Made by a program: the position numbers and the translations under genes
Part shown: positions 6,261-32,767 of the stretch, in pieces
Layout: each line of letters opens with the position of its first letter
Position numbering within the stretch: the stretch's first letter is position 1
Notes under the pieces: model-generated
Told to the model about the DNA's origin: nothing
The model's input: only the letters and a program-made list of their open reading frames with translations
Databases searched by the model: none
DNA from: a virus
IMG/VR virus record: IMGVR_UViG_3300023184_000338
Location: 1 to 33,724 of that record
DNA: 33,724 nt
Reading direction: 5' to 3' (one strand)

Positions 6261-7308
6261 GAAGAGCCTCCAATACGTCCTGTCTAATTTTTTCCCGTTT
6301 ATCAGGGTTTTCCGTTAGGAATTTGGCAAGTTCTTTTTTGCCAAGATACTTTTCCTCTTCGTAGTAATAATATGGACCGGACTGACCAATTACATTCGTT
6401 CTTTTTGCTGTCGCAATAATGTCTTCAAGCCAATCAACACCAAAGGGATGGTCTTCAACTTCTGCGCTATAAAACATGTAGCGAGCGGTTTTGCGAGATC
6501 CCTCTGAAAGTTTATTGCGAATGATGGTCGCATTAACTTCATGACCGATTTGAACATCATCGCCATTAATCTTGGTCGTAACTGTTTCAGAACTTCTCTT
6601 CAATTGAACAATAACTGTCTCGGCATGTTCAAGTGCGTGACCACCGGGTTGCTCTACAACGCCGGGAATTCGGGAATTCATCTTGTCACGAACCTGATTG
6701 AGCATGAGAACCCAAACGTCATTTGTATAGACAGAATTCATAATGGAACGAACGCCATGTGTAATAAGCGCTGCGTTGCCGCCGACTCTTGCCTTGCCGC
6801 CCTCTTCGTTTTCGCTAGCAGAACTCATAGCGCCAATAGAATCGAAAACAACGGCATCAATAACTCCGGAATTTACAAAAATCTTTAATTGATCCAACGC
6901 TTCTTCTGCGTTCTTCGGACGAGCAACGATTAGATTGCCTGTATCAACGCCATGTCTTTCCGCCCAGTCAGGATCCCAATTAGGTTCCACGGCGACCCAT
7001 GCGCAATTCATACCAATTTTCTGAGCGCTGGCAATTGCGAGCAGTCCGATAACAGATTTTCCGATATCGCGAGGACCGAATACGCCGCAGATATGACGAG
7101 TAGGCCAACCACCCGTGCCTAGAGCGTGATCCAAGGCAAGTATCCCCGTAGGGATTATGCGGGACGGATAGCGTTCAGACCCAAGAGCAACAGAATTCCC
7201 GAATTTCTTTTTGAAATCCAAAAATTGCTTCTGTATTTCTTTATTCACTTCGCCACTCGGTTCTGTGGAACCGGCTGGTTCATTATTGGAGTTTTTCTCC
7301 TCTGACAA
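6238..7308 (-). CDS. recA: RecA-like recombinase
   Basis: A 356-residue RecA/UvsX-family strand-exchange ATPase. Residues 78-85 are the Walker A GPRDIGKS, Walker B is AVVFDSIGAM, and the L1/L2-like segment includes MLNQVRDKM followed by GGHALEHAETVIV. The protein would form filaments on ssDNA and support recombination-dependent replication and repair, together with the ssDNA-binding protein and nucleases encoded on either side. The N-terminus is a 20-residue low-complexity acidic stretch and the C-terminus is charged. Start is TTG at 7308, supported by GAGGA 7 nt upstream; no ATG lies nearby. It overlaps DnaE by 26 nt. Confidence 0.93.
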   Translation of the reverse strand: MSEEKNSNNEPAGSTEPSGEVNKEIQKQFLDFKKKFGNSVALGSERYPSRIIPTGILALDHALGTGGWPTRHICGVFGPRDIGKSVIGLLAIASAQKIGMNCAWVAVEPNWDPDWAERHGVDTGNLIVARPKNAEEALDQLKIFVNSGVIDAVVFDSIGAMSSASENEEGGKARVGGNAALITHGVRSIMNSVYTNDVWVLMLNQVRDKMNSRIPGVVEQPGGHALEHAETVIVQLKRSSETVTTKINGDDVQIGHEVNATIIRNKLSEGSRKTARYMFYSAEVEDHPFGVDWLEDIIATAKRTNVIGQSGPYYYYEEEKYLGKKELAKFLTENPDKREKIRQDVLEALRGDKRDK

Positions 7309-10300
7309 GATTCAGTCCTCGTTCTGTTACTTTACAGGTAAATATACCAACATTGTTTGGTTTTAGCAACCACTTTTTGTAATCTCCCCAAAGATCCTGA
7401 GAATTCCAATCGGAGGCAGAAAATACAACAAATTCGTTTTGCCGACCATCCCATTCGACCTTAACTATTCCCATGTTGGATCCACGTTTGGTCTTTACCT
7501 CTTTAACCTCTCTGATTACACCGGGAATATCAATGTACAAACCCTGTAAACCATCAAAAGATTCTGGGACGACCAAAGAATTTAACCTCTCTCTGTGGGT
7601 CTCAACCGTTTCTGCACTCATATCGGTGATGCAGAATCCAAGAAGTTCTTGTTCTGCTTCTGCGATATCTCCCCTTGAGACCTCGCGGGCTTCTATATTG
7701 TCGAAAGCGCCAACATTTACAAGAGTGTCAATGACATTAGATCGAAGGATTTGTCTTGGGGACTTTCCCTTCTTGTGCCCCTCCCATTCTTTCTGAGCCG
7801 CTGCGTGTTTGTCCGAGAACTCTTTTGAAGATGCGTAGGGCCGATTATCAACGATCCATCTAGCCGCATCTTCGCCAACCCATTTGATGTTTTTAAGACC
7901 AAACCATATCTGCGTATCCTTACTGCAAATTTCGACCTCAGACATATTTACGTCTGGAAGATTGATTTTGATTCCCATGAGCGAGGCTTCCTGAATGTAC
8001 GGACCTACATCTACAGGATTAGTTTGAATAGAAGACATAACAAATTCAACAGGGTGTTTCCACTTGGCGTACATTGTACGAGCCAAGATGATAGCGTAGG
8101 CGACGGCATGAGACTTATTGAAAGAGTATTTGGAAAAGTCAATAATCAGATTCCAGATTCGCTCCGCCATTTTTTCTTCCATGTGCTTGGTGGCATGCTC
8201 AATATATCTTGGATACTCGTTCTCCATTTCAACAACCATTTTTTTACCAAGCAATTTGCGGATGTGGTCAGCCTGCTTGAGGTCGTAACCAATTGACCGA
8301 AAGTAAGAGATGACCTGCTCTTGGTAGAGAAAATCTCCGTACGTTTCCTTAAGAATTTCTTCAAGAATCGGATGCAGATACTTGACCTCTTCAATCCCGG
8401 CGCGGCGGTCAATAAAGCGTTCAACCACACCAGAACGAAGCGGACCCGGCCTATTTAAGGCAACAATTGCAGCAAGATCAAGAATTGACCGGGGGCGGAT
8501 CCTCTTCCCAATTTTTTTAGCATTGCCGTCTTCAATTTGGAAAAGACCTAGCGTCCAGCCTTTATCAATTAGCATCCAAAAGTCTTCTGAAAGTTCTTCC
8601 CATTCAATATCTTGATAACGCCAATTACCGCCGACACTCTTATTAACCATTTTCAGAGTATCAAGATTTCTAAGGCCTAGACGGTCAAATTTTGGAAACC
8701 CACATTCTTCCACCTCTCGCATTTCCACCTGTGTTGCAAGAATTCGACTACCTTTCGCTCCGTCATCGTCTTTTAAGGCGCGGTACATGGTCGGCAATTC
8801 CTCTCTGATATCTACATCAGAGATGACAATTGCCGAAGCGTGGATTCCGTAATTAGAAATCCTACCGCCGATGATCTTTGCGCAATCAAAGAGTTCTGGA
8901 TATTTTTCCATGAAGGGAGCGAGTTTTTTGGCAGCATCTTCGTCTTCCAGCACAGCGATTTTAATTCCTTCACCAGACTCCCATCCAATCTGGTCGGCAG
9001 ACATAATATTGATGTCTGGTACAGAATCAATAATTTTCTTAATTGCCTCTGCGTCCTTATACGCAATCCCAAGAACTTTTGCAACGCGATCAATCGTTGC
9101 CTTGGGCTTCATTCGGATGTGGTTTCCTATTGGGATAACGTGATTGACGCCGTACCGGGATTTGAGATACTCATCCAACTCGTGGCGGCGGCTTGGCTCA
9201 AAATCAATATCAATATCAGGAAGACCGCTATCACGACCAGCGTTATAGAATCTCTCAAAATAAAGATCGTATTTAATGGGGTCTACGTCTGTAATTCCCA
9301 ACGCATAGGCGAGGAGACATCCTCCTGCACTTCCACGACCCGGACCTCTTTCAATTTCACTATCGTCAGCCCATTTACAGAAATCCGCAGTGATAAGGAA
9401 ATAGTCTGTTAGGCCAGCGTTAACGATTGTTTCAATCTCATATATCGCCCGGTCTTCAATCTCTTTGGTGACTTCCTCGTACCGACGCTCTAAACCTTCT
9501 TCAACAAGGCGAATCAGCATTGTCGCGTTGTTCTTGTCCTTAGAGGCTTCTTTAGGAACAAAAACCGGTAGATGCATGCGCGGTTCAGAGAGTTTTGCAT
9601 CTTTACATCTATCTAGAATTATGTCTGAATTATTTATTGCCTCATCGACAACACTTTGACTGAGATATGACAATTTGGATCTAACATCAACCTCATCCAT
9701 GATGTAAAGAGCAAGAGGATGCGACATCCTATTCTCATCATCAATCTTCTTGCCCATCTGCATGCAAAGCATGACTTCATGATAAGGATAATGATCCTTG
9801 CAAGAATAATGAGCATCGTTTGCATAAACCATTGGGATGCCATGCTCTCGCGCTACCGAAACAAGTTCTGAGTTGAGATCCATCTGAAATTTCTCGGGGT
9901 AAGTATGAATTTCCAAAAAGAAATCATCGCCAAATATTTCTAAGAACTTGTATACCGCTTCTCGGTTGCCACCGTTTCGTATACCTTGACAAACAATACT
10001 TGAAGCGCATGCGGATGTCGCAATGATGCCCTCCTTGTACTTTTCAAGAAGTTCCCAATCCATTCGCGGGACATAATAAAAGCCCGTTCGATTAGCCTCG
10101 TCAGAAATGCGCATGATGTTACGCACACCTTCTTCATTCTTTGCCAAAAGAATGAGGTGCGCCTGATCACGCTGCTTCTTTTTTCTATCGGGAGTTATCT
10201 TCCGATGTACGCTGGCTTGATATGCTTCTATGCCGAATCCGGGGATAAGATCGTTCCGGCGCATCTCTTTCATAAAAGGACGCCAACCAGCAATTACAGC

Positions 10301-10417
10301 ATGATCTGTCAGGAACGCGCCACGACTACCAATCTCCTGCGCGCGCGAGGCGATTTCTTTTACGGTAGAGAAACCGTCTAGGGCGGAGAACTCGCTGTGA
10401 TTATGAACGGGTATCAA
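7283..10417 (-). CDS. dnaE: DNA polymerase III alpha subunit (family C, DnaE type)
   Basis: A 1044-residue family C replicative polymerase. The N-terminal PHP domain is visible (VHNHSEFSALDG, LTDHAVIAGW, ANDAHYS around H203), with a partly preserved metal site, so it may keep proofreading activity. The palm holds PGRGSAGG (359-366) and the catalytic PDIDIDF (D401, D403); the fingers contain LYQEQVISYFRSIGYDLKQA and SFNKSHAVAYA. The C-terminal region is short compared with bacterial DnaE and looks like a reduced HhH/OB part, with no clear clamp-binding motif. The TTG at 10417 follows GGAGGGG by only 2-4 nt, and an extended -10 box lies 9 nt upstream, so initiation may be from a nearly leaderless transcript. 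No sliding clamp is seen in this window. Confidence 0.95.
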   Translation of the reverse strand: MIPVHNHSEFSALDGFSTVKEIASRAQEIGSRGAFLTDHAVIAGWRPFMKEMRRNDLIPGFGIEAYQASVHRKITPDRKKKQRDQAHLILLAKNEEGVRNIMRISDEANRTGFYYVPRMDWELLEKYKEGIIATSACASSIVCQGIRNGGNREAVYKFLEIFGDDFFLEIHTYPEKFQMDLNSELVSVAREHGIPMVYANDAHYSCKDHYPYHEVMLCMQMGKKIDDENRMSHPLALYIMDEVDVRSKLSYLSQSVVDEAINNSDIILDRCKDAKLSEPRMHLPVFVPKEASKDKNNATMLIRLVEEGLERRYEEVTKEIEDRAIYEIETIVNAGLTDYFLITADFCKWADDSEIERGPGRGSAGGCLLAYALGITDVDPIKYDLYFERFYNAGRDSGLPDIDIDFEPSRRHELDEYLKSRYGVNHVIPIGNHIRMKPKATIDRVAKVLGIAYKDAEAIKKIIDSVPDINIMSADQIGWESGEGIKIAVLEDEDAAKKLAPFMEKYPELFDCAKIIGGRISNYGIHASAIVISDVDIREELPTMYRALKDDDGAKGSRILATQVEMREVEECGFPKFDRLGLRNLDTLKMVNKSVGGNWRYQDIEWEELSEDFWMLIDKGWTLGLFQIEDGNAKKIGKRIRPRSILDLAAIVALNRPGPLRSGVVERFIDRRAGIEEVKYLHPILEEILKETYGDFLYQEQVISYFRSIGYDLKQADHIRKLLGKKMVVEMENEYPRYIEHATKHMEEKMAERIWNLIIDFSKYSFNKSHAVAYAIILARTMYAKWKHPVEFVMSSIQTNPVDVGPYIQEASLMGIKINLPDVNMSEVEICSKDTQIWFGLKNIKWVGEDAARWIVDNRPYASSKEFSDKHAAAQKEWEGHKKGKSPRQILRSNVIDTLVNVGAFDNIEAREVSRGDIAEAEQELLGFCITDMSAETVETHRERLNSLVVPESFDGLQGLYIDIPGVIREVKEVKTKRGSNMGIVKVEWDGRQNEFVVFSASDWNSQDLWGDYKKWLLKPNNVGIFTCKVTERGLNLVRGEKLQ

Positions 10418-10426
10418 TGCCCCTCC

Positions 10427-10435
10427 ATCTTAGCA
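10427..10435 (-). promoter_or_regulatory. Extended -10 promoter for DnaE
   Basis: TGC-TAAGAT on the minus strand, 9 nt before the TTG start of DnaE and downstream of the long hairpin element. There is no -35 match. The predicted transcript would begin 2-3 nt before the start codon. This is one of eleven similar TGN-TANNNT boxes in the window. Confidence 0.45.
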
Positions 10436-10450
10436 GGAAAGAGAAAAGAA

Positions 10451-10539
10451 TTGGGGCGGGAGCCATAGTGGCCGTCGCTGTCGTGGCGACGTCGCGAAGT
10501 TCGACGGCATCATCGACACGGGCATGGCTCCCGCCCCAA
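10451..10539 (-). repeat. GC-rich nested inverted repeat between ssDNA-binding protein and DnaE genes
   Basis: Two perfect 16-bp arms (10451-10466 and 10524-10539; TTGGGGCGGGAGCCAT and its complement) enclose 57 bp. Inside is a second perfect inverted pair, GCCGTCG at 10471-10477 with CGACGGC at 10502-10508, and within that a perfect 10-bp palindrome GCGACGTCGC at 10486-10495. On the minus strand the outer stem is followed by a pyrimidine-rich tail (AATTCTTTTCTCTTTCC), so a strong transcription terminator is one reading. Nested symmetry of this size is more than a simple terminator needs. A structured RNA, a protein-binding site or a replication element are alternatives. Confidence 0.8.
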
Positions 10540-10548
10540 ATTGCTGGA

Positions 10549-11364
10549 CTATTCAGACATCTGCTGCTTGAGGGCGGCGAAGCGCGTGTTGCGCGGTGCC
10601 TCCTCATCAGTCCACGGCGGGGCCTTCTCTGCATCCTTGTCGGAAACAGGAGCGGTGGCCTCCGTCTTTCCGCCGTAGCGGGAGACCTGATAGTGATCCG
10701 GAAGAGGATCGATCAACGAACGCAAACGATTTTCATCGCCGAGACCGGTAAGATACTCTTCGATATCGACAAAATTCTCAGAGAATCCCGAGAGATCGAT
10801 GGCGGAATTTTCGGTCTTAATGAAATCGTAGCGGGTCGAAATCTTTTCACCGCGACGAGTCACCGAGAAGACACAGTCTTCAATTGCCATTCCTGTATCG
10901 TCCGCAAACGTGGTAAGCCAGCGAAAGAAATTGGACGGAGTCTGGATAATAAGACCAATGTCCGGAACCGTTTCATCACGGCGCTGGGTGGTGCCAACCT
11001 CAAAACCAGAAATTTTGCCCGCCGTGCGGACGGGTTGCAAAACAGCAACAAGGGCAATCGACTTCAGGCGAGGCTGAACCTCAAAGCGATCCCAAATCGG
11101 ATCATAACCGTCCTCGCCGTCAAAGGCGGGATCCTTGCGCGACACAAAATCATTGTAGATAGAGGAGCCGTTATCACGCTCGCCAGTAATGATGAACTGG
11201 TGCATGAGCACGGTAGGAACCTCCTCCAGTGGCGTAATGAACTGGATGTACTTTTTCTCGTCGGTCTCCCAGTTAATGAAGTTTGGGCGCGGTGCTCCGT
11301 TTTCACGCTTCTGACCGGCTTGTGCGATTACCTGCGCACCCTTGCGAAAATTAGGCATTGTCAT
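10549..11364 (-). CDS. Probable single-stranded DNA-binding protein
   Basis: A 271-residue protein lying between the primase/helicase and polymerase genes, where phages usually keep their ssDNA-binding protein. It has a basic N-terminus (NFRKGAQVIAQAGQKRENG), a beta-rich core (KKYIQFITPLEEVPTVLMHQF, RLKSIALVAVLQPV, GLIIQTPSNFFRW), and an acidic, Pro-rich C-terminal region (SDKDAEKAPPWTDEEAP) like the protein-recruiting tail of such proteins. No zinc motif of the T4 gp32 type is present, so it would be a different lineage. AAGGAG lies 3 nt before the ATG at 11364 and 9 nt before the ATG at 11358; the second may be the true start. The gene is visibly more GC-rich than its neighbours. Function is inferred from context and architecture. 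Confidence 0.6.
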   Translation of the reverse strand: MTMPNFRKGAQVIAQAGQKRENGAPRPNFINWETDEKKYIQFITPLEEVPTVLMHQFIITGERDNGSSIYNDFVSRKDPAFDGEDGYDPIWDRFEVQPRLKSIALVAVLQPVRTAGKISGFEVGTTQRRDETVPDIGLIIQTPSNFFRWLTTFADDTGMAIEDCVFSVTRRGEKISTRYDFIKTENSAIDLSGFSENFVDIEEYLTGLGDENRLRSLIDPLPDHYQVSRYGGKTEATAPVSDKDAEKAPPWTDEEAPRNTRFAALKQQMSE

Positions 11365-16288: not shown

Positions 16289-18220
16289 ATGGAAAAGCAA
16301 GAACTGCCAACAGATTATCAAAAGTTTATTCATATCAGTAGATACGCAAGATGGTCTGACTCCCTTGGAAGAAGAGAAAACTGGGAGGAAACTATTGATA
16401 GATATTTTAATTTTATTGAAGCGAACCTGCTTAGGACTAACAATTATAAATTAGATTCAAAACTTCGTAAAGAACTTTCTGATGCTGTTTTGAATCTAGA
16501 AATCATGCCCAGCATGCGAGCATTGATGACTGCCGGTCCCGCTTTAGAACGCGACAACATTGCTGGTTATAATTGTTCCTATGTGCCTGTCAATCACATC
16601 CGGTCTTTTGACGAAATTCTCTACGTCCTTATGTGTGGAACGGGTGTTGGTTTCAGTGTTGAGCGTCAGTTTGTAAACGAACTTCCGATTGTAAATGAGC
16701 ATTTTGAAAAGTCGGACACGACAATTGTTGTAAACGACTCAAAGTCTGGATGGGCACGAGCGCTCCGCGAATTGATTGCAATGCTCTACGCTGGCCAAAT
16801 TCCTTCTTGGGATGTCAGCAAGGTTCGTCCCGCAGGTGCTCGTCTCAAGACATTTGGTGGTCGTGCTTCTGGACCCGGTCCTTTGGAAGATCTATTTCGA
16901 TTTTCCATTCGCATGTTCCAGAATGCTGCTGGCCGCAAACTAACAAGTATCGAATGTCACGACCTTGTGTGTAAAATTGCGGATATTGTAGTGGTCGGAG
17001 GTGTCCGTAGGTCAGCGCTTATCAGCCTGAGCAACCTAACTGATGATCGTATGCGCAATGCCAAGTCTGGCGCTTGGTGGGAGGATAATATTCAGCGCGC
17101 TCTCGCCAATAACTCTGTCTGCTATACGGAGAAGCCCGAGATGTCTTCGTTTATGGAGGAGTGGCTAAGCCTATACAATTCTAAGAGTGGTGAGCGTGGC
17201 ATCTTCAATCGCGAATCCGCTAAGAAACATGTTGCTCGCAATGGCCGTCGTGATGTTGACTGGGATTTTGGAACCAACCCCTGCTCAGAGATCATCCTTC
17301 GCCCCTATCAATTTTGCAATCTGACCGAGGTTGTTGTCCGTGCAGAGGACAATCCCAAAGATATCGAGCGCAAAATTCGCCTCGCCACGATCCTTGGAAC
17401 CTTTCAAGCAACCATGACGGATTTTAAATATCTCCGCAAGATCTGGAGGGACAACACCGAAGAAGAGCGCCTTCTCGGCGTGTCCCTGACGGGTATCCTT
17501 GATAACAAATTCATGGCCTATCGTTCTGAATCCTTAAACGACGCCCTCGTTGGTTTCCGTGAGATGGCCGTTAAGACAAATGCCGAATTTGCCAAAAAGT
17601 TGGGAATCAATCAGTCTACCTCCATCACCTGCGTCAAGCCCAGTGGAACAGTTTCTCAGTTGGTTGACTCGGCTTCCGGCATACACGCTCGCCATGCTGA
17701 GTATTACATCCGCCGCGTCCGTGGAGACAAGAAAGACCCACTGACTCAGTTTATGATTGATTCGGGCATCCCTTGCGAGGACGATGTCACGAATTCCGAA
17801 AACATAGCCGTCTTCTCATTTCCAATGAAGTCTCCTGAGGGTGCTGTTCTCCGTGACGACCTTACTGCTTTGGACCAGTTAGAACTGTGGAAAACCTATC
17901 AGATCGAATACACCGAACATAAGCCGAGCATAACTGTTTCCGTCAAAGAGCACGAATGGATGGGAGTCGGCAGTTGGGTGTGGGAAAACTTTGATCATGT
18001 AAGCGGTGTATCTTTCCTGCCACACTCTGATCACACCTATCGTCAGGCTCCCTACGAAGAAATAGACAAGGTAGCCTATGAGACGATGTTAGCGGTCATG
18101 CCCGTGTCTATTGATTGGTCTCGTCTTGCCGAATATGAATATGAAGACAACACAGAAGGCGTGCAAACCCTTGCTTGTTCAAGTGGGGCTTGCGAGATTG
18201 TTGATGTCGGCGTTAAATAA
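16289..18220 (+). CDS. nrdJ: Class II (adenosylcobalamin-dependent) ribonucleotide reductase
   Basis: A 643-residue monomeric class II reductase that converts ribonucleotides to deoxyribonucleotides using adenosylcobalamin to make a thiyl radical. The radical loop is NPCSEI: C332 is the thiyl cysteine and E334 the catalytic Glu. C96 (AGYNCSYVP) and C343 (YQFCNL) are the reducing pair. C630 and C635 in LACSSGACE are the C-terminal shuttle. The 11-residue spacing of C332-C343 and 5-residue spacing of C630-C635 match Lactobacillus leichmannii RTPR (408/419, 731/736). It is about 100 residues shorter than that enzyme, so the N-terminal allosteric part may be reduced. GGAG lies 7-8 nt before the ATG. 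No class I radical-generating subunit is needed or present. The protein depends on host B12. Confidence 0.93.
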   Translation: MEKQELPTDYQKFIHISRYARWSDSLGRRENWEETIDRYFNFIEANLLRTNNYKLDSKLRKELSDAVLNLEIMPSMRALMTAGPALERDNIAGYNCSYVPVNHIRSFDEILYVLMCGTGVGFSVERQFVNELPIVNEHFEKSDTTIVVNDSKSGWARALRELIAMLYAGQIPSWDVSKVRPAGARLKTFGGRASGPGPLEDLFRFSIRMFQNAAGRKLTSIECHDLVCKIADIVVVGGVRRSALISLSNLTDDRMRNAKSGAWWEDNIQRALANNSVCYTEKPEMSSFMEEWLSLYNSKSGERGIFNRESAKKHVARNGRRDVDWDFGTNPCSEIILRPYQFCNLTEVVVRAEDNPKDIERKIRLATILGTFQATMTDFKYLRKIWRDNTEEERLLGVSLTGILDNKFMAYRSESLNDALVGFREMAVKTNAEFAKKLGINQSTSITCVKPSGTVSQLVDSASGIHARHAEYYIRRVRGDKKDPLTQFMIDSGIPCEDDVTNSENIAVFSFPMKSPEGAVLRDDLTALDQLELWKTYQIEYTEHKPSITVSVKEHEWMGVGSWVWENFDHVSGVSFLPHSDHTYRQAPYEEIDKVAYETMLAVMPVSIDWSRLAEYEYEDNTEGVQTLACSSGACEIVDVGVK

Positions 18221-19482: not shown

Positions 19483-19553
19483 TGGGGGATCGTCTAAAGG
19501 CAGGACAACGGGTTTTGGTCCCGTGAATTGGGGTTCGAATCCCTGTCCCCCAG
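19483..19553 (+). tRNA. tRNA-Gln (UUG)
   Basis: Acceptor arms TGGGGGA and TCCCCCA pair fully, with discriminator G. The anticodon stem ACGGG/CCCGT closes the loop TTTTGGT, giving anticodon TTG. The T-arm has GGTTCGAATCC. The unusual U1-A72 pair is typical of bacterial tRNA-Gln. CCA is not encoded. Confidence 0.95.
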
Positions 19554-25124: not shown

Positions 25125-25406
25125 TTATGGGCCTGTAGGACCTGTGGCACCAGTGGCACCAGTAGGACCAGTAGGACCTGTAGGACCAGTAGGACCAGTA
25201 GGACCTGTAGGACCAGTAGGACCAGTAGGACCTGTGACGTTCACGTCAACGGTTACCCAGCGACCTGCTGAAACATTGCGGATGTCACGCTGAATTTTTG
25301 GATCAGCGATGTTGACAACCGTACCACCATCAGCGTTGCTGATGTTTGTGTTGCCGAGACGCAAGGGCTGACGGCCCATTCGGCGAATTCTAACGTAATC
25401 TGCCAT
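25125..25406 (-). CDS. Short collagen-like (Gly-Pro-Thr)n protein
   Basis: A 93-residue protein. The first 58 residues form a small basic then mixed domain ([18 protein letters not shown] ... [21 protein letters not shown]), and residues 59-93 are uninterrupted Gly-X-Y triplets: eight GPT, two GAT, then GPT-GP to the C-terminus. This is a collagen-like triple-helix tail; GPT threonines are known O-glycosylation sites in bacterial collagen-like proteins such as BclA. The N-terminal part probably anchors it to the particle; a virion decoration protein is likely but not certain. AAAGG lies 8-9 nt before the ATG. A terminator follows directly. The triplet number is probably prone to slippage. Confidence 0.8.
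25128..25232 (-). repeat. 9-bp codon repeat encoding Gly-Pro/Ala-Thr
   Basis: Near-identical 9-bp units (GGT-CCT/CCA-ACA type) encode the collagen-like tail. They are coding repeats with no spacers, so this is not a CRISPR array. Confidence 0.9.
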
Positions 25407-30672: not shown

Positions 30673-31332
30673 TTAAATTTTGATGATGTGCCAAATTGCA
30701 ATTGTAGGATGGGAAGTTGTTCCTCCCCCTGCCCCGCTGCTGAGATAAGTAATCGTGGGCGCATTGTGGTTGTGATTGGGAGTGGAGGTGCCTCCGCTTA
30801 TATTGTGATTGTGAGGTCCAGCCGCACCGACAGCCCCGGTCATTCCGTGATTATGTCCCTGAATGTGAGTATTCGTGCTTCCGGAGGCCCGTAAAACGTT
30901 ACCGGTGTCGTTTGCGGAAGTCCCCACGTTGAATGCGTGACCGTGACTGCCTCCGTCACTGGTAGTAGAGGCCGTGGCATTGTGATTGTGAGACGTACTT
31001 GCTAGGGCGTTGACCCCGGGTACTGTACTGATATTATGAGCGTGAAACGCAGATCTGCTGACGTGTTCCGCGTTGGTCTTGGCGGCAACATGTTTGATCA
31101 TATAGTCCGAAATTCCGGGGAGCCGAAACGTACCCACCCCTTCGCCGGTCGTATTATATCTGGTGCCAATGGCAGCAAAGAGCGCTCTGTACATTGCCTG
31201 AGGCACGGTCTGCCCGTCGCAGTAGAGCCAGCCGGGGGCTGCAATCGCACCGTTTGCCGAGGCGGCATACTGCCCAGCCCCTCCGCCCCAAAGCATCATA
31301 GTGCCGGGTGGAATGTGAAAATTCTGACTCAT
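30673..31332 (-). CDS. Tail-collar domain fibre protein 1
   Basis: A 219-residue protein with a phage Tail_collar domain at about 33-75 (GWLYCDGQTVPQAMYRALF followed by RYNTTGEGVGTFRLPGI). The rest is Gly/Ser/Asn/His-rich with repeated H-x-H units (HAHN, HNHN, HGHAF, HNHG, HNHN, HNHN). In T4 gp12 and other fibre tips, such H-x-H pairs from three chains bind iron along the trimer axis. It ends in a hydrophobic strand (TIAIWHIIKI), the usual C-terminal trimer cap. It is probably a receptor-binding tip. Last of three tandem collar proteins; its start overlaps the previous stop (ATGA). Confidence 0.88.
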   Translation of the reverse strand: MSQNFHIPPGTMMLWGGGAGQYAASANGAIAAPGWLYCDGQTVPQAMYRALFAAIGTRYNTTGEGVGTFRLPGISDYMIKHVAAKTNAEHVSRSAFHAHNISTVPGVNALASTSHNHNATASTTSDGGSHGHAFNVGTSANDTGNVLRASGSTNTHIQGHNHGMTGAVGAAGPHNHNISGGTSTPNHNHNAPTITYLSSGAGGGTTSHPTIAIWHIIKI

Positions 31333-32033
31333 ACTGCTTTGATGATCGCTCGCACTTGATAAGCCGACTGCTCCGTCGAAAGGGCAACCTGACTGCTAGC
31401 AGCGGCAGAGTGAGTCGCTTGGGCGACAAAGGTCGATCCGGAGGTAAGGTGACCCGTCTCGTGATTGCCAGAGTTAGTTCCGTGGGCTTGAGCGTTTTGA
31501 CTGTGACCATGATCATAGGTTCCAGTTACGCCCGTACCAATGGCCGTGCTTGCGTGTGTGTGAGCAGCGCCTTGTACGCCGACGCCGTTGCCAACGGACT
31601 TTGCCATGAAGTTGGCGTTACCGCTTGCGAAACTAACTACTCCGTTGTGAGCATGACTAAGAGCACCCGAGTTGTTGAGACTTGAAGAGTTCCAATTGTG
31701 ATTGTGATCACCGCTAGCGATGTTGGTAATCGAAACATTGGTGGTGAAGGGATGATCGTGCGTATCTGCCCCTCCGGTTGCTCCCGTCGCGCTTCCACCA
31801 TAGGCATATTTTAGATTAAGGCTTGGCAGGTCAAAAGTGGCAGTGCCATCACCCACGCCGTAGGTGGTGCTGATCGTGGCAAAGAGTTTTCTGTAAATAG
31901 TACGGCTCCTCGGCGTACCGTCACATATCAACCATCCGGCTGGTACTACTGCTTCGTCTCCGGCCCACGAGATTACCGAGCCGACGGGTAAGAGATGTGC
32001 TGGTAGCCCCGGAGAAGAGTATCCCAAACTCAT
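31329..32033 (-). CDS. Tail-collar domain fibre protein 2
   Basis: A 234-residue relative of the neighbouring collar proteins. The collar domain reads PVGSVISWAGDEAVVPAGWLICDG ... IYRKLFATISTTYGVGDGTATFDLPSL (about 16-72). A Gly/Ser/Asn-rich region with H-x-H units follows (HDHPF, HNHNW, HAHN, HTHA, HGHS), ending in the strand YQVRAIIKAV. It is expected to form a trimeric, metal-stabilised fibre tip. It overlaps both neighbours by four bases (ATGA), so the three proteins are made in close ratio. Confidence 0.88.
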   Translation of the reverse strand: MSLGYSSPGLPAHLLPVGSVISWAGDEAVVPAGWLICDGTPRSRTIYRKLFATISTTYGVGDGTATFDLPSLNLKYAYGGSATGATGGADTHDHPFTTNVSITNIASGDHNHNWNSSSLNNSGALSHAHNGVVSFASGNANFMAKSVGNGVGVQGAAHTHASTAIGTGVTGTYDHGHSQNAQAHGTNSGNHETGHLTSGSTFVAQATHSAAASSQVALSTEQSAYQVRAIIKAV

Positions 32034-32767
32034 GCTAGAGTCCTTTCTTGCACTTTAGCGAGGATAACATGAACCATCGTAAGATACGGCGGGAAATTTG
32101 TGGTAGCCGTAGGAGTATAGGGGCCTCCAGAGGCGTTATAATTATGCGAGTGGGATACGCTAGAAGAGGTCACGCTGTTAACGCCGTGACCATGACCAGC
32201 GTGACCGTCGGTGCTTCCACTCGCACTGTTGGTAGCGTGGTTGTGCGCACCATACGCAGTGTTCAGATTGCCGTTGGCCCCAGCGTTGGTGGCTCCAGCA
32301 GATTGGGGCAGGCTCACGTTTAATGAATGAACGCCACCGTACGCTGGTGAGTCGGTGCTCATGGTTGCTGTGTGGCTTTCCGAACTGCTTCCAGAAGCAC
32401 TGACGCCAAGATTTGTGGTCCACGTATGAGTGTGCGCCGCACCAGCAGTGGTGCCGACATTAGCGTTTCGGCCAGCGTTAGTCGGGCTTACTAGCGATGG
32501 ACTAACGGTGAAGTATCCCGCCGCCAAGTTTGGAAGCAAAAAGTGTGTTGCTCCCGCCGCACCAGAACCGTTTGTATTAGCGCCGTAAGGGAAGGTCGTA
32601 GCGTTTGTGGTTAAAATATTATAAAGTTCGGGATAAGTGGCAATAGCAACCTGCTGATTGTTGCACAACAACCAACCGCTTGGAGCAGTAGCGTTGTGCC
32701 AAGCGATAATAGATCCAATAGGAATCGTGTGCCCTGCGCTTTGGCCTGTAGGTGTAGATACGGTCAT
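32030..32767 (-). CDS. Tail-collar domain fibre protein 3
   Basis: A 245-residue member of the tandem set. The collar domain is IPIGSIIAWHNATAPSGWLLCNN ... YPELYNILTTNATTFPYG ... HFLLPNLA. The distal region is Ala/Gly/Ser/Thr-rich with H-x-H units (HTHTW, HNHA, HGHG, HSHN) and ends in YLTMVHVILAKVQERTLA. A ribosome-like AGGA lies 11 nt before the ATG. It is first of the three collar genes in transcription order. The three share architecture but differ in the distal part, as expected of receptor-binding tips under diversifying selection. Confidence 0.87.
   Translation of the reverse strand: MTVSTPTGQSAGHTIPIGSIIAWHNATAPSGWLLCNNQQVAIATYPELYNILTTNATTFPYGANTNGSGAAGATHFLLPNLAAGYFTVSPSLVSPTNAGRNANVGTTAGAAHTHTWTTNLGVSASGSSSESHTATMSTDSPAYGGVHSLNVSLPQSAGATNAGANGNLNTAYGAHNHATNSASGSTDGHAGHGHGVNSVTSSSVSHSHNYNASGGPYTPTATTNFPPYLTMVHVILAKVQERTLA

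Follow-up and report, generated by a model that had tools for sequence, protein, structure and literature searches.

The locus and its hairpin

The window, that is, the whole stretch of 33,724 nucleotides of viral DNA analyzed here, has all of its main genes between about 15193 and 1093 on the minus strand, in the order helicase, primase, a 70-aa ORF, a 271-aa protein, the hairpin described below, a DnaE-type polymerase and RecA. A Cas4-like exonuclease and a RuvC-like resolvase are also found among the minus-strand genes. The features of interest are the following:

10549..11364, minus strand: ssb, upstream of the hairpin, assigned from a family HMM, a profile match and gene order
10451..10539, minus strand: intercistronic RNA hairpin in the ssb 3′ UTR, the RNA running from 10539 to 10451, assigned from fold and covariation
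10524..10539, minus strand: 5′ arm of the stem, about 10 nt past the ssb stop codon
10467..10523, minus strand: 57-nt interior, an irregular extension of the stem in the predicted fold
10451..10466, minus strand: 3′ arm of the stem
10437..10450, minus strand: U-rich tail 3′ of the stem, RNA ...CCCCAA-UUCUUUUCUCUUU
7283..10417, minus strand: DnaE/PHP-type DNA polymerase III alpha, downstream of the hairpin, assigned from Pfam and PHROG matches

The 271-aa protein is a predicted SSB, as indicated by profile matches and gene order. A profile built from this protein and three close homologs finds the SSB of Gordonia phage RedWattleHog at 8e-5, and comparison with the profile of a distant-homolog set (SSB alignment A5), whose members match PHROG single-strand-DNA-binding families, gave a probability of 98.9. 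RedWattleHog and Rhodococcus phage Finch share the order primase, small ORF, (DnaJ), ssDNA-binding protein, DnaE polymerase, RecA, the gene preceding the polymerase being annotated as ssDNA-binding protein in both. The model of the window protein is strand-rich (pLDDT 84.5); since a fold search with it gave no significant structural match, the name SSB rests on profiles and gene order. Several of the weak top-ranked hits of that search were ssDNA-binding or OB-fold proteins.

Downstream of ssb, TTGGGGCGGGAGCCAT (10451-10466) and ATGGCTCCCGCCCCAA (10524-10539) are perfectly complementary, with 57 nt between the arms, and AATT flanks the element on both sides. When the window was shuffled 200 times with its dinucleotides preserved, perfect inverted repeats (arms at most 100 nt apart) reached an arm length of 14 bp, against 16 bp here: the palindrome is real and beyond chance. 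The initial annotation, made from the letters, had correctly described a GC-rich element in a lower-GC genome (67% versus 45% for the record), and the minus-strand RNA folding that it proposed as a check bears it out, with a folding energy of -66.5 kcal/mol and a z of -4.5 for the ssb-sense RNA (10400-10560, minus strand). This is the top 100-nt fold across the whole 33.7-kb record, both strands considered. The annotated nesting holds in part: inner 7-bp arms (10471-10477 and 10502-10508) and a 10-bp palindrome, GCGACGTCGC (10486-10495), are present within the 16-bp arms, but they do not make separate stacked hairpins. The predicted structure is a single long hairpin of 34 pairs (single-stem scan), the irregular inner part of which pairs only some of the inner-arm and palindrome bases, and a helix of at least about 20 bp is reached only when this part is included. 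Relatives do not conserve the interior and have much shorter apical regions. A special meaning of the inner palindromes is not supported. As for the extended -10 box placed next to the element, we found no promoter-like match there and nothing similar in the gaps of relatives. In its operon, whose genes are co-directional, the element forms a stable stem-loop within the ssb 3′ UTR, with about 33 nt from the hairpin end to the polymerase start.

An Rfam search of the window at the gathering score returned tRNAs only and no match for the hairpin; the five tRNA genes lie at 19483, 21318, 24340 and 24419 (plus strand) and 25499 (minus strand). Elsewhere in the window, the minus strand encodes a collagen-like Gly-Pro-Thr repeat protein (25125-25406) and three consecutive similar His/Gly-rich, tail-collar-like proteins, apparently tandem duplicates (30673-32767), and the plus strand a class II-like ribonucleotide reductase (16289-18220) with 89% identity to that of relative G001. 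No counterpart of the latter turned up in the other two relatives, but their records may be fragmentary. In relative G002, the terminase homolog (L094, G002:C1:22639-24534) contains one in-frame TGA, which may be an error, a mutation or recoding.

Compensatory changes and the working strand

Viral contig scans with the window polymerase or SSB as single protein found no relatives, and genome contigs searched with the SSB alignment gave no match, while a polymerase alignment query retrieved three IMG/VR contigs with 67% polymerase identity (L010, L011 and L012). All three carry a hairpin just past the ssb stop codon; in L012, a small ORF lies between the hairpin and the polymerase gene. In a MAFFT alignment of the four sequences, 97.9% of the cells of a 12-pair stem are in standard pairs and 6 of the 12 pairs are changed on both sides. 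Either value (paired cells or double changes) was reached by 2 of 500 shuffles, and the best slid register gave 2 double changes and 62% paired, while the loops vary widely, from 5 to 57 nt. For a sample of four sequences the number is modest and the pattern clear: compensatory changes maintain the hairpin among the close relatives. Covariation analysis, the second check suggested with the annotation, thus found conserved structure with compensated arms, and not the unstructured or freely varying arms that would have spoken against it.

We then asked on which strand the element works, using a strand-neutral inverted-repeat search that scores G.T and A.C alike, with 925 control windows. Across the 31 clear repeats at the ssb 3′ ends described below, that of the window among them, the ratio of G.U to A.C is 54:7 on the ssb-sense strand, compared with 302:303 in the controls. 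Since G.U is tolerated only in the ssb-sense transcript, selection acts on the ssb mRNA, and the working form of the element is ssb-sense RNA. A more conservative comparison of the best fold on both strands shows only a weak sense preference (18/33, p = 0.035); of the two tests, the strand-neutral count with its control windows is the cleaner. The window stem gives no strand signal of its own (-53.9 versus -55.2 kcal/mol) because it is perfect.

These observations weigh on a DNA-level reading, in which the palindrome would be a replication origin, a protein-binding site or an inserted mobile repeat. Its GC content, high relative to the surroundings, and the flanking AATT, which could mimic a target-site duplication, would fit such a reading, but the G.U bias points to RNA, the window holds no second copy, the exact arm pattern has no match in viral contigs, and hairpins of unrelated sequence recur at the same place. 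We consider a DNA-level role, which the initial annotation had entertained as a replication or binding element, to be extremely unlikely. The mobile-element version was set aside in view of the single copy together with the differing hairpins at the same place in relatives. By BLAST, the element had no match in phages and two short, chance-like matches in plasmids.

Hairpins after ssb in distant phages

We extended the analysis to distant relatives, with polymerase identities of about 30-42%, in which ssb was located with the SSB profile. The set comprises phages in which a DnaE polymerase accompanies a related ssDNA-binding protein and amounts to 47 distinct ssb 3′ ends, 31 from distinct loci and 16 added later from an SSB scan and annotated isolates. 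The first group includes two weak SSB matches (L110 and L140) and the second contains variants of one another (L176/L179, L180/L182, L181/L184); the loci are not fully independent. Separately, the best DnaE matches in phage records of human faecal origin, L002, L003 and L004 (MT835885, MT836213 and MT835750), have frames of about 1150 codons, versus about 1040-1100 in phage copies; these records resemble pieces of bacterial chromosome submitted as phage.

The distant relatives carry hairpins directly past the ssb stop codon, with unrelated sequences. The median z is -3.07 at the 47 ssb 3′ ends versus -0.36 at 241 other gene ends, and a z below -2.5 is found at 36/47 and 6/241 of them, respectively. 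In 39 of the 47 loci, against 8 expected, no other gene end is as structured as that of ssb; the p-value attached to this pooled comparison takes no account of relatedness. The ssb-end fold ranks first in its locus in 15 of the 31 distinct loci and 7 of the 16 added later. Long inverted repeats (score 12 or more) occur at 24 of the 47 ssb ends, versus 2 of the 925 control windows. The hairpin is not obligatory, as 11 of the 47 loci miss the z cut of -2.5 (for example L014, L015, L017, L019, L109 and L186). Among isolates, it is clear in Rhodococcus phages E3 and Finch, Eggerthella phage LE2-3, Gordonia phage RedWattleHog and Mycobacterium phage Phrappuccino, although in E3 and LE2-3 it is outside the strongest folds of the locus; the Bixzunaviruses Tonenili and Alice have weaker structure at the ssb end. 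Taken together, a hairpin recurs right after ssb in diverse phages with unrelated sequences. In a limited full-text literature search, we found no earlier description of a phage ssb 3′ hairpin.

To which of the two genes the hairpin belongs can be read from 23 loci in which 250-1170 nt separate the polymerase gene from ssb. In these, the median z is -3.1 at the ssb end and -0.3 before the polymerase. As the structure stays at ssb when the polymerase is distant, the element belongs to the ssb 3′ UTR, and the hairpin travels with ssb, not with the polymerase gene. The initial annotation had thus placed the element correctly between the two genes and anchored it to the wrong one, since it follows ssb even when the polymerase is far.

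In some loci (L016, L022, L018, L020, L099 and L100), the structure extends over the start of the next gene, whose translation it could affect instead. A role in translational or autogenous control, by which the hairpin would halt mRNA-bound SSB from spreading into the next gene or mask the next start, has a precedent in T4, where gp32 represses its own mRNA through cooperative binding, and the next start codon lies under the hairpin in L016, L013 and L022. The position of the hairpin nevertheless tracks the ssb stop codon and not the next start, falling about 33 nt short of the polymerase start in the window and hundreds of nt short in many relatives, and we hold such a control to be very unlikely. 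In L016 (2736-2800), L013 (1939-2000) and L022 (2733-2800) themselves, the hairpin spanning the start codon is conserved among these relatives in two distinct versions, which suggests a control of the translation of the next ORF. In L099 (2904-3010), L100 (955-1060), L018 (2594-2680) and L020 (2587-2690), the next ORF begins right at the ssb stop, and the fold over its first codons is extremely strong, ranking near the top of the locus.

Stem length bears on another reading, in which RNase III would cut a long double-stranded stem and thereby separate the ssb and polymerase messages. Stems of 20 or more pairs, the typical size of an RNase III substrate, are present in many members, including L107, L132, L030, L032, L176, L180 and L182. 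However, those of L010, L098, L104 and L006, with about 9-13 pairs, are too short, and no conserved internal-loop pattern was seen among members, and we hold RNase III processing to be improbable.

A more serious contender is an intrinsic terminator, complete or leaky, with release past the GC-rich stem and the U-rich stretch, most transcripts ending after ssb. The window element has the GC-rich stem-loop of such a terminator, followed by AATTCTTTTCTCTTT, with about 6 T, interrupted, in the 8 nt past the stem. A canonical U-tract terminator, GGGGACCctagaGGTCCCCTTTTTTATTTT, stands at the same place in T4, directly after gene 32 (L190 1800-1955), and the internal terminators of clostridial ABC operons combine low-U tails with long GC-rich stems (PMC9045158). 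Yet of the 31 clear hairpins, that of the window alone is followed by a TTTT run or by at least 5 T within 8 nt. The mean number of T in the 8 nt past the repeats is 2.3, versus 1.9 expected, and a U tract is absent from the close relatives; 30 of the 31 clear hairpins have no U run. Classical intrinsic termination thus fails to explain the set. Furthermore, the tested clostridial case lost termination once its U tail was removed (PMC9045158), a simple terminator scan with a loop limit of 8 nt did not list the window element, and the polymerase and the remaining operon still need to be transcribed. We therefore view termination as an unlikely explanation, though not a negligible one.

A model for the ssb hairpin and comparison with known systems

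SSB coats DNA stoichiometrically, and a phage needs many more copies of it than of the polymerase, which would provide a selective reason for stabilizing the ssb message. We propose that the hairpin probably does so within the operon, such that much SSB and little polymerase would be made from one transcript. The stem-loop lies in the ssb 3′ UTR, in a replication operon whose genes (helicase, primase, ssb, polymerase and recA) run in one direction. Once the polycistronic mRNA had been cleaved, or transcription terminated, just downstream, the hairpin would stop 3′-5′ exonucleases, and the ssb part would thereby outlive the polymerase part, resulting in abundant SSB and scarce polymerase from a single transcription unit. 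Stabilization is favored because the hairpins mostly lack a U run, as in the SRPS operons discussed below, and because a stem deprived of its U tail failed to terminate transcription (PMC9045158). In the window, the U-rich tail may also end a fraction of transcripts, and partial termination is possible there because of this tail. The suggestion in the initial annotation that the element separates two expression levels is accordingly the reading that fares best, the effect on expression being inferred.

More tentatively, phages pairing this ssDNA-binding-protein family with DnaE may repeatedly evolve or maintain a post-ssb stem-loop, of unrelated sequence, that sets the SSB-to-replisome ratio without classical termination. 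The findings already tie a structural RNA element to one gene function, ssb, across diverse phages, the hairpin being kept while its sequence, its length and its downstream neighbor change. The model of much SSB and little polymerase from one operon is testable, as it predicts mRNA 3′ ends in the culturable, sequenced phages Phrappuccino, RedWattleHog, Finch, E3 and LE2-3; the annotated stretches of these phages that were retrieved here list coding genes only.

Several known systems resemble this arrangement. The T4 gene 32 terminator is likewise a hairpin directly after a phage ssb gene and is a functional parallel from a phage whose polymerase is of another type; the T4 stem is short and followed by a nearly perfect U tract, whereas the hairpins described here are longer and generally without U tract. 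In E. coli, the REP element between malE and malF is an intercistronic hairpin credited with stabilizing the abundant upstream message. The window element is similarly an intercistronic hairpin after the gene of a message expected to be abundant, but REP is a repeated family, while the window element is single-copy and sequences are unrelated between phages.

In ABC importer operons, internal terminators follow the binding-protein genes (PMC9045158). The window shares with them a long GC-rich stem after a gene expected in excess and a U-rich tail of low quality, but most phage relatives have no U-rich tail at all. The closest likeness is with SRPS operons, described in the cip-cel operon of Clostridium cellulolyticum (PMC4423207), genome-wide by SLOFE (PMC8219983) and in E. 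coli (PMC10667835). There, the stem-loops lie within operons, where highly transcribed genes end, and lack a U run in 28 of 33 cases (PMC4423207), and their folding energy tracks the ratio of upstream to downstream transcript (PMC4423207; PMC8219983). As in SRPS, the phage stem-loop lies 3′ of a gene expected in excess, within an operon, mostly without a U run, although the window has its U-rich tail, and with its sequence free to vary. SRPS also involves an adjoining processing site and an upstream transcript that exceeds and outlives the downstream one, which for the phage hairpin would be predictions. What sets the phage case apart from SRPS is that it belongs to a replication operon and that a single gene function, ssb, bears the hairpin across diverse phages.
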